The notes beneath the pieces are model-generated. The model ran no database searches, was not told where the DNA came from, and saw nothing but the letters and a program-made list of their open reading frames with translations. 64,000 nt of DNA from the NCBI GenBank assembly GCA_019308745.1, contig JAFDHO010000004.1:48319-112318 (forward strand), written 5' to 3'. A program made the translations under genes and the position numbers. The stretch comes from Deltaproteobacteria bacterium. GTDB taxonomy: Bacteria; Desulfobacterota; DSM-4660; Desulfatiglandales; HGW-15. Each line of letters begins with the position of its first letter. Position 1 is the stretch's first letter. Below, piece by piece: positions 2,055 through 42,637 of the stretch.

Positions 2055-6095
<4,041 letters not shown>

Positions 6096-38863: not shown

Positions 38864-39412
38864 TCAAAAGAATCCATCAGAAAACAACCCTCTCTCCTTC
38901 CTTTGGCTCCCTTCAGCCATTGAATTCCGCGTGATCAGGATGGCAACAGGCGTCTGCCCGATTTCAGCCATCTGGTACGCCTGGGTAATTTGACCTCTGG
39001 CGTCAAAATCAGCCGACAGGTCATAGTAGGGGATCTTCATGGCATCCAGAAAGGGGCGGAAGGACCTGGCTTTCATGTACTGCCCGACAGTGACATCTCC
39101 CAGATGCCCGCGATCCGTGGCGATCATTACCAGTGGGATCCCGTAGGAGACTGCCAGTGTTGCCAGAGCCCCTCCCGTGTTGAGCAAACCAACGCTTTGA
39201 GCCAGCAACAGGGATCGCACTCCGGAAAGGGATGCCCCGCAACAAATACCCAGTGCGTCTTCCTCCCTTGCCGCAGGGGCGTAGGTTATTCGCTTTGAAG
39301 TCTTTATGGCCTCAATTAGGGGCCCAAGCCAATTGTCGGGTACTCCGGAGGCCAATCTCACCTCAGCATCTTCTATCGACCTTTTGAGTCTTTCTGCGAA
39401 GCTCTTGTCCAT
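38864..39412 (-). CDS. ThDP-dependent decarboxylase N-terminal (PYR) subunit, sulfopyruvate decarboxylase alpha-like
   Basis: REEDALGICCGASLSGVRSLLLAQSVGLLNTGGALATLAVSYGIPLVMIATDRG. Confidence 0.8.
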   Translation of the reverse strand: MDKSFAERLKRSIEDAEVRLASGVPDNWLGPLIEAIKTSKRITYAPAAREEDALGICCGASLSGVRSLLLAQSVGLLNTGGALATLAVSYGIPLVMIATDRGHLGDVTVGQYMKARSFRPFLDAMKIPYYDLSADFDARGQITQAYQMAEIGQTPVAILITRNSMAEGSQRKERGLFSDGFF

Positions 39413-39427
39413 CGGATCCTCTCTCCT

Positions 39428-39709
39428 CTACACCAATCCAAACAGTCCTGGCAGGAATAGGGTGACGCTCGGCACGGTGGCCACGAGTGTTATGCCCGCG
39501 AAGAGTAGGCTGGACAGGAGCAAATGGTGGAACGTTTCTTCTTCCTCAACGCAAATGTGGTCAGAGAGTTCTGGATGAAGGGCCTCGAGTCTCGCCAGGA
39601 AATCCTTGACCGTGATAGGCGCTTCAAGTGCGATCTCTTCCCATACTTTTCGATCACCGACCTTCCGGTTTCCAAAAGGAGGATGTAGGCGGAACCACAT
39701 CTCCGTCAT
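39428..39709 (-). CDS. MoaD/ThiS-like beta-grasp protein with degenerate C-terminus
   Basis: 93 aa, overlaps AOR gene by 4 bp; ends VTLFLPGLFGLV instead of ...GG. Confidence 0.7.
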   Translation of the reverse strand: MTEMWFRLHPPFGNRKVGDRKVWEEIALEAPITVKDFLARLEALHPELSDHICVEEEETFHHLLLSSLLFAGITLVATVPSVTLFLPGLFGLV

Positions 39710-41565
39710 ACCCGGCTGGGTATCTCAAGTCTTTCTAAGGTCTCTTTCAAGGGGATCCCGTCCTTTGACCAACCTCTTGTTTCATAGTACTCGTCAAGCA
39801 TTCTGTCCAGTGGAGGTAAGTTGGCTGTGTATCCAACGGCATTCTTTTCCAAAGTAAGCATGCGTTTGGGTAAGACATCGTCCTTTCTTGAAATCCCTCT
39901 TTCTACATTAATAACTCTCTTGAGGTTGAACGCTCTTTCCCCATGGAGAAGCATGTCTTCGATGCTATCTCTTCTCCCCGTCACACAACAAAAGCCTTGC
40001 GTCACGGGTCCTATTGTCCAGCCACCGTCTTGCGCGAACTTGCAGCTCTTCACGGAATCCAAGACGTTCATTATGTTTTGGGTCAAGGCAGCCAGGGCCC
40101 CTTTGCCCTCCACGACAAAGCGACCCATGGGCCTGTGATTGAGCTCGGGGACTTCGAGCCTGTGTTCGTACAGATGGGTTTGCCCTGATGTGTGATGTGC
40201 GCCCCTGTTGGAGGTGGCATACGAACAGGCAAGGCCGTTGTATGCCCTCGGATCATGGGCGGGTATGGCCAGCCCCTTGACGTGAATGGCGAACTCCTTT
40301 GCTTTGTCATCGATTTGAGAAACGGCATGCCTGAACCCCTTGTTCAGCACGGATCCGATGTTCCTGCTCTCCCCGATCATCCTCACGCCTTCCAGCATGG
40401 CATCCGGGTCACCAAACTTGAGAGGGACACCCCCGGTGTCGGCATCCGTTATGATTCCGGCCTCGTAGGCCTCCATGGCGAAGGCCAGGAGAGCCCCTGT
40501 CTCGATGGTATCGATCCCGTACCTGTAGCACAGTTCATTGGCCAAACAGACCGCCTCCAGGTCATCGACGAGGCAATTTCCTCCCAACATGTTGAGAGTC
40601 TCGTATTCAGGCCCGCCCCCTTCAACGGTTCGATATGGCCCTTCTTTGACATGAACGGTGTTCCCGCATCCAATAACACAACCTCGGCAAAAATAGGCCT
40701 TTACCATGATGCCCTTTTCATAAAACGCCGGCCCTGAAAGCCTTGCTGCGCCATCTTCCCAACGGAATGGGTACTTCCAGTTCTGTAATGGGGAAGAGCC
40801 TATATGCTCGGCAGCCTGAACCATTCTTGCCGTACCGTACTTCCGCATGTCCTTGAGACGCCCTGCAACGATCGGAGAATGTCTCTTGACCAACTCCCTC
40901 AGGCCGGGCTCGTCGGCCACCGCCGGCCTTCCCGTGCCCTTCACCACGACGGCCTTGATCCTCTTCTCCGCCATAACGCTCCCAATGCCACAGCGTCCGG
41001 CAGCTCGGGCATCGGCCCCATCGTGCATCACGCCGGCGATGAGCGCCCCCTTGATGGCCCCGGTCCCAATGCATGCGATTCTGGCCTTGGGCCCCCATTC
41101 CTCTTTGAAGACCTGTTCCACCTCATAGGGGTCCAACTCCCAGATCTTTTCGGCAGGGCTGAGGCTTGCTCTACCGTCTTCTATGCCTAGGTAAACGGGC
41201 TTCGATGCCTTTCCCTTCAAGATGATCCCGTCGAAGCCCGCCTTCTTCAACTCTTCCCCCCAAGCGCCACCCACGTCTGATTCTCCAAATATCCCGGTCA
41301 ATGGAGAAAGAGATACCAAATGATGTCTTCCGGAGGTGATAAACCGGGTTCCACAGACCGGGCCGGTCATGAAAATGACCGGGTTTTCTGGATCCGTGGG
41401 TGAGGTCGACGGAGAAATCTCATCATAAAGATACCGGCTTGCCAGACCGGCCCCACCCATATATCGCCGAGCCCAATCCCAATTCAGCGGCTCTATCTCA
41501 ATAGTTCTATTTGTCAAATCTACCTTTAGCAGCTTCCCCTTATAGCCATGCGTTTCCATCACCAT
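39706..41565 (-). CDS. Aldehyde:ferredoxin oxidoreductase family protein
   Basis: YMGGAGLASRYLYDEI, SGRHHLVSLSPLTGIFGESDVGGAWGEELKKAGFDGIILKG, GGGPEYETLNMLG. Confidence 0.93.
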   Translation of the reverse strand: MVMETHGYKGKLLKVDLTNRTIEIEPLNWDWARRYMGGAGLASRYLYDEISPSTSPTDPENPVIFMTGPVCGTRFITSGRHHLVSLSPLTGIFGESDVGGAWGEELKKAGFDGIILKGKASKPVYLGIEDGRASLSPAEKIWELDPYEVEQVFKEEWGPKARIACIGTGAIKGALIAGVMHDGADARAAGRCGIGSVMAEKRIKAVVVKGTGRPAVADEPGLRELVKRHSPIVAGRLKDMRKYGTARMVQAAEHIGSSPLQNWKYPFRWEDGAARLSGPAFYEKGIMVKAYFCRGCVIGCGNTVHVKEGPYRTVEGGGPEYETLNMLGGNCLVDDLEAVCLANELCYRYGIDTIETGALLAFAMEAYEAGIITDADTGGVPLKFGDPDAMLEGVRMIGESRNIGSVLNKGFRHAVSQIDDKAKEFAIHVKGLAIPAHDPRAYNGLACSYATSNRGAHHTSGQTHLYEHRLEVPELNHRPMGRFVVEGKGALAALTQNIMNVLDSVKSCKFAQDGGWTIGPVTQGFCCVTGRRDSIEDMLLHGERAFNLKRVINVERGISRKDDVLPKRMLTLEKNAVGYTANLPPLDRMLDEYYETRGWSKDGIPLKETLERLEIPSRV

Positions 41566-41601
41566 CTCCCCGGAATGGGTTTGCCCCTGACTTCAAGGCC
41601 T

Positions 41602-42085
41602 CTATTTCATCAAACCAAGTTCCCTATTCAGTTTTTCATATCGCTCGGGATAGAACTTCATCCCTGACAATTCAGGGCCGTTCCCATAATAGCGATGGGC
41701 CCTGAAAAGCATTGAACAGTAAACGTTCTTGAAAGGCAGGATAAAGGGACTGACCCACTCCCAGCATACCTCACACTCGCGGGTAACCTCGAAAACACGG
41801 CCACTCTGCCCCTCACATATCAAGGTATTCCCATCGGGCAAGCGCTCGCAGCCTCCCACATGTCCGCTAAAGAAACTAAAGACCAATTTTGGGACATACT
41901 GCCAAAGGATCCTCCCCGAATTGATATCCACTTCTATTACTCGCGAGTGGGGGGTTACCGGATCGTGTGTGCCATTGTCGAAGATAAGGACGTTACCCTC
42001 CGATGTTAATGTGGCATCATGCTGGTGGCTTATGAGATGGTCATTCCCCCATCTCCACAGTACATTACCTTGAGGCCAGTCTATC
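41602..42085 (-). pseudogene. 5'-truncated arylsulfotransferase-like (PQQ-like repeat) gene
   Basis: IDWPQGNVLWRWGNDHLISHQHDATLTSEGNVLIFDNGTHDPVTPHSRVIEVDINSGRILWQYVP is ASST-like; homology stops at about 42085 and the ORF continues only as antisense of the next gene. Confidence 0.7.
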
Positions 42086-42519
42086 ATCATCACGAGATGG
42101 GGTTGGCACCCTCTGTCGGGCTCGGTGTGGCGCTGGCGCACCCTGAAAGGAAAGTAGTGGTCATCGAAGGTGACGGAAGCATCGCCATGGGCTTGTCGAG
42201 CCTCGTCACCATTGCCCATAATCAGCCAGACAACCTCATGATCGTTTGCATGGATAACCAGATCTACGAAGCGGGGGGACAAAACCCCACACCGAACGCG
42301 GGACGCATGGATTTCGTGAAGACCATGGAAGGCCTTGGTATCACCCCGGCCAGATCCGTTGACAGCCCTGACGAGCTCAGGAGGACTGCCAGCGAATTCT
42401 TGAGTCACAGGGGCTGTTCATTCCTGCACGTTCCAATTGGGAAGAGAAAAGGTCCCCTGCATCAGCCCACACTAAAACCCTACGAAATGAAGCACAGATT
42501 CAGGTCACTGTTCACGTGA
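42080..42519 (+). pseudogene. 5'-truncated ThDP-binding (PP) subunit, sulfopyruvate decarboxylase beta-like
   Basis: HHHEMGLAPSVGLGVALAHPERKVVVIEGDGSIAMGLSSLVTIAHNQPDNLMIVCMDNQIYEAGGQ (GDGS...N ThDP motif); N-terminal ~40 residues missing. Confidence 0.75.
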
Positions 42520-42637
42520 AGCTCCCTCGGCAGGAGCACGGGGCATCCTGGCGAAGACGAGTGAAGAAGACATGCCCTCGGCACCCCGTATCCACAACGC
42601 ACAGCTTCAGGGGCGGGATCCGCTCCTTCAAGACCTC

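Follow-up and report, generated by a model that had tools for sequence, protein, structure and literature searches.

In ComDE-type sulfopyruvate and phosphonopyruvate decarboxylases (PDB 9iz3 chain B), the PYR (alpha) and PP (beta) subunits are encoded by separate genes. The two ThDP genes described here are divided in the same way and have their best family matches in this group, but both score far short of the equivalog thresholds and the beta gene is broken.

Deletion-derived pseudogene pairs, in which a single deletion truncates two adjacent genes and leaves open remnants behind, occur in bacterial genomes. The present locus differs from such pairs in nothing fundamental, except that the gene of the partner subunit survives elsewhere. 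No papers were retrieved by literature searches for these gene combinations, for assembly chimeras or for deletion pseudogenes.

The window analysed here is the whole stretch of 64,000 nucleotides from contig JAFDHO010000004.1 of an uncultured member of Desulfatiglandales. At about 42.1 kb the remains of an arylsulfotransferase-like (AST) gene meet those of a ThDP beta-subunit gene (Table 1). This arrangement was probably left by a deletion of about 2 kb as a case of ordinary gene decay.

Table 1. Features around the junction. Coordinates are those of the window.
Feature	Position	Strand	Description
Alpha (PYR) subunit, intact	38864..39412	-	same ThDP enzyme type as beta; PF02776; apart from beta, on the opposite strand
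93-aa ORF	39428..39709	-	overlaps the AFOR stop; ends 15 bp before alpha
AFOR (aldehyde ferredoxin oxidoreductase), full length	39706..41565	-	PF02730 and PF01314
AST fragment, C-terminal	41602..42096	-	164 codons plus stop; arylsulfotransferase-like (ASST family); about 239 N-terminal residues missing
Junction	42096..42097	.	AST match runs to base 42096, beta match from base 42097; no common bases at the two edges compared with G012
Beta (PP) fragment, C-terminal	42097..42519	+	140 codons plus stop; small ThDP-dependent decarboxylase-type; 46 N-terminal residues missing
Mechanical ORF, 268 aa	41602..42408	-	AST fragment plus 104 codons antisense to beta
Mechanical ORF, 166 aa	42019..42519	+	beta fragment plus 26 codons antisense to AST

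Results

Intact relative and the missing block

Among the 61 genomes searched, the nearest relatives of AST (a 403-aa frame, 77% aa identity over 160 aa) and of beta (60%) were both located on contig C577 (JAQYVK010000577.1, 5.3 kb) of the Desulfatiglandales MAG SG_15_bin78, hereafter G012, which belongs to the same family but to another genus. The comparison with intact loci that the sequence-only reading had proposed was thus provided by a single contig, in which the AFOR and AST genes on the minus strand face the alpha and beta genes on the plus strand, both truncated genes being complete. The determined order was the AFOR N-terminus (-), AST of 403 codons (-), about 650 bp of intergenic DNA, alpha (+), beta (+) and an aldo/keto reductase-like gene (-), the last one named from reading its sequence.

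Positions 41600-42096 of the window matched 300-796 of the contig, and positions 42097-42362 matched 2799-3064. The two loci were otherwise colinear, with a single block of 2002 bp (contig 797-2798) missing from the window, as judged on one relative of about 70% nucleotide identity which is itself a MAG contig. The block comprises alpha and the intergenic DNA together with codons 1-239 of AST and codons 1-46 of beta. None of the lost AST, intergenic or beta sequence was detected anywhere in the window. The start of AFOR, AST and beta have the same order and orientation in both loci, with nucleotide identities of 74% (AST) and 66% (beta). In contrast to the window, AST and beta of G012 are complete and separated by the intergenic DNA and alpha, and the right flank is occupied by the aldo/keto reductase-like gene instead of an amidohydrolase. 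The deletion between formerly divergent genes, preferred in the sequence-only reading, gains support from this comparison, as the window equals the G012 locus minus 2002 bp.

The same contig bears on the main alternative of that reading, a chimera of unrelated loci. The two sides of the junction are true neighbours in the same orientation in the relative; by this comparison it is very unlikely that unrelated loci were joined here. A narrower artefact, in which the contig wrongly joins both sides and skips 2 kb that are present in the organism, would suit an assembly of 418 contigs with an estimated contamination of 5.85%. However, no k-mer common to the edges, judged on G012, was available for an assembler to collapse, the GC content was similar to the left and right of the junction, the missing part of AST was found on no other contig of the genome, alpha was single-copy and beta had no other close copy. 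Such an artefact is regarded as improbable.

In a scan of about 85,000 genomes with strict peptide patterns, no match to the beta fragment was obtained, and the corresponding scan with the alpha alignment matched only the G012 contig. In a phylum sample of 395 genomes, only distant alpha copies were detected at the cut-off used, all in one genome, and no AST or AFOR match was present near the distant alpha-beta loci of that genome. A dispersed palindromic repeat with more than 20 matches in the G012 genome, different from the one at the beta stop codon of the window, was observed about 25 bp upstream of alpha in G012 (L049:2077-2137).

Position and sharpness of the junction

When the two ungapped diagonals to G012 were compared, the switch from one to the other was best placed at 42096/42097. 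To the left of the junction the identity was 75% along the AST diagonal and 26% along the beta diagonal; to the right it was 29% and 66%, respectively. As each diagonal drops to about chance identity beyond the junction, the edges have no repeat in common. No direct repeat was detected next to 42096/42097 either, judged on the G012 edges in place of the true ancestral sequence.

The two similarities abut without gap or overlap, and the head-to-head meeting of two 5'-truncated genes described from the sequence is therefore confirmed by comparison with the intact relative. Its start points, about 42085 for AST and 42082 for beta, were off by some 11-15 bases. The misplacement arose because AST 'LVMMI', read as antisense in the beta frame, gives 'HHHE': the residues HHHE (42085-42096) are antisense of AST codons and not part of beta, and the AST similarity starts at LVMMIDW, not at IDW.

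The two remnants

The absence of both N-termini was borne out by the Pfam searches, in which only C-terminal parts were matched, and by the existence of longer intact relatives of AST and beta. In the AST of the window, PF14269/PF05935 were matched only in their C-terminal part, and a full-length PF05935 or PF14269 domain was not found in the window; the intact relative scored 86 bits. In G012 and in a second genome, G052, AST relatives of about 400 aa were found that have the N-terminal half. With these full-length relatives at hand, the truncation of AST is, on sequence grounds, not an effect of weak homology. Matches to the AST N-terminus elsewhere in the genome were paralogues with only 29-42% identity. 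The AST remnant, with about 60% of its length lost, is probably non-functional. As a separate observation, 56 arylsulfotransferase-like matches were counted in the 3.6-Mb genome G003, of the same family as the genome of the window, and 0-11 in the other relatives searched; a lineage-specific expansion of these genes in G003 is possible.

In the plus-strand ORF, PF02775 (TPP_enzyme_C) was matched from profile position 17 with 79.7 bits (gathering score 21.9). The GDG motif was kept (EGDGS) and the N-terminal part was missing. The in-frame ATG at 42097 corresponds to Met47 of intact beta. In the intact beta proteins examined, some 43-50 residues precede the MGLAP-like motif, so that weak homology does not account for the truncation of beta either. 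The first part of the PP domain being lost, the beta remnant is probably non-functional as well. Another PP-domain match in the genome, on C56, was rejected as a small beta subunit from reading its translation.

Folding of the DNA after beta was no better than that of shuffled sequences, and no Rfam match was obtained in the search for a terminator or structured RNA there. A REP-like imperfect palindrome at 42516-42570 on the plus strand, with the core CTCCC..GGCAGGAGC..GGGGCATCCTGGCGAAG..GAGTGAA, overlaps the beta stop codon and has 21 other matches across the genome. The last residues of beta differ from those of G012 at this repeat.

Cross-junction reading frames

The two ORFs reported by gene callers across the junction exist as the sequence-only reading had described, each running through the antisense of the other gene. 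In both extensions the antisense frame is in codon register with the other gene. A stop in this frame requires a sense TTA, CTA or TCA codon, and none of these codons was present in the 104 and 26 codons under the extensions. The extensions are thus mechanical, resulting from the absence of antisense stops. No full-length homologue spanning the junction, which would have contradicted a junction of truncated genes, was found. Neither ORF should be catalogued as an intact gene.

The frames could also be seen as new working genes, with the fusion ORF 42019-42519 (or its part from the ATG at 42097) and/or 41602-42408 expressed and constrained, and the beta remnant still pairing with alpha. Open frames without stops, an in-frame ATG exactly at the junction, the GDG motif kept in beta and the retention of an intact alpha are in accordance with it. 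Against it, both N-terminal extensions merely read the opposite gene in antisense, as expected where antisense stops are rare, beta is without 46 residues that are present in the intact homologues examined, and the promoter signal was not above the shuffled background. The formation of new genes is consequently considered most improbable.

The surviving alpha gene

The alpha gene of the window was 60% identical at the amino acid level to G012 alpha, and the beta fragment 59-60% identical to G012 beta. Only one alpha copy was detected in the genome. It lies 2.7-3 kb from the beta remnant in the opposite orientation and with tight operon spacing. With TIGR03845 (sulfopyruvate decarboxylase alpha) it scored 98 bits, below the cut-off of 148, and the ORF of the beta fragment scored 107 bits with TIGR03846 (sulfopyruvate decarboxylase beta), below the curated cut-off of 221.5. 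By their sequences alpha and beta resemble the subunits of sulfopyruvate and phosphonopyruvate decarboxylases; due to scores below the equivalog cut-offs no substrate is assigned to them.

The 93-aa ORF had no significant Pfam match and ends with GLV, not with the Gly-Gly expected of the ThiS/MoaD family; by position and size it is possibly ThiS/MoaD-like. AFOR starts 36 bp downstream of the AST fragment, an arrangement found also in G012, whose contig ends inside AFOR. A search of the G012 bin for the remainder of that AFOR was negative, the best AFOR matches there being 38% identical. About 20 AFOR-like matches per genome were counted in G000, G012 and G052.

A plain deletion accounts for the missing colinear block and leaves alpha unexplained, as the gene should have gone with the block. 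The AST 5' part is absent from the genome, yet one alpha gene persists. An inversion with losses would start from an ancestral one-strand operon, AST-AFOR-small ORF-alpha-beta, with breakpoints inside AST and beta and with the leftover 5' parts later lost near 38864. In one step it gives an alpha opposite to beta and the tight same-strand series of AFOR, small ORF and alpha. However, it predicts beta codons 1-46 facing the N-terminal part of AST near 38864, and neither was found by blastn, tblastx or reading of the frames. As the leftover 5' parts are absent there, the inversion needs extra losses, and it also requires an independent inversion for the divergent arrangement in G012. Neither inverted nor direct repeats that would convincingly link 38.8 kb with 42.1 kb were detected. 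The inversion is rated as rather unlikely.

With the deletion retained, the alpha gene at 38864-39412 would most plausibly be a second copy, or one relocated earlier, outside the deleted block. Three histories would fit: a duplication or transfer of alpha to its place behind AFOR preceded the deletion, both changes occurred in one complex event, or the segment AST_C-AFOR-alpha was inverted.

Polarity and age

Alpha and beta were neighbours in the other examined loci that had both genes. Since AST is full length in G012 and G052 and alpha and beta are adjacent elsewhere, the window would represent the derived state, with the loss in this lineage.

The substitutions relative to G012 at the first, second and third codon positions were 34:13:87 in AST, 42:31:86 in beta and 47:38:107 in the intact alpha. 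The patterns of beta and alpha did not differ (Fisher P = 0.83). Third-position changes dominate as in intact alpha, and most of the divergence from G012 therefore accumulated under protein constraint. No stops or frameshifts were present in either fragment, giving 304 codons without a stop. In simulated neutral decay, the probability of no stop in 304 codons was about 0.06 at 10% divergence when stops alone were counted, and about 0.09 at 2% divergence when indels were included at an assumed 0.1 per substitution. A neutral divergence since the break of more than about 10% (stops alone) or more than 2-3% (indels at the assumed 0.1 per substitution) is accordingly unlikely. Because the frames are open and the codon pattern shows no more decay than in alpha, the event looks recent on that divergence scale, or else an artefact.

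Discussion

In the favoured course of events, a deletion of about 2 kb would have taken the AST 5' part, the divergent intergenic region, the adjacent alpha gene and the beta 5' part. The 5'-truncated remnants would have stayed head to head, and the divergent promoter region, as judged from G012, would be gone. Since the edges have no detectable common sequence, the deletion is likely to have arisen by end-joining or by illegitimate recombination that needs little or no microhomology.

Upstream of AFOR, the small ORF and alpha, minus-strand genes encode an amidohydrolase (PF04909) and TRAP proteins (PF06808 and NMT1_3), and read-through from them may now be needed for expression of the three. 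A functional rearrangement, in which removal of the divergent promoters placed these three genes behind the TRAP-transporter/amidohydrolase genes and alpha works without beta or with its shortened form, is very doubtful.

The locus records how an uncultured Desulfatiglandales lineage, probably in recent times, lost a ThDP enzyme of two subunits and was left with an orphan alpha.
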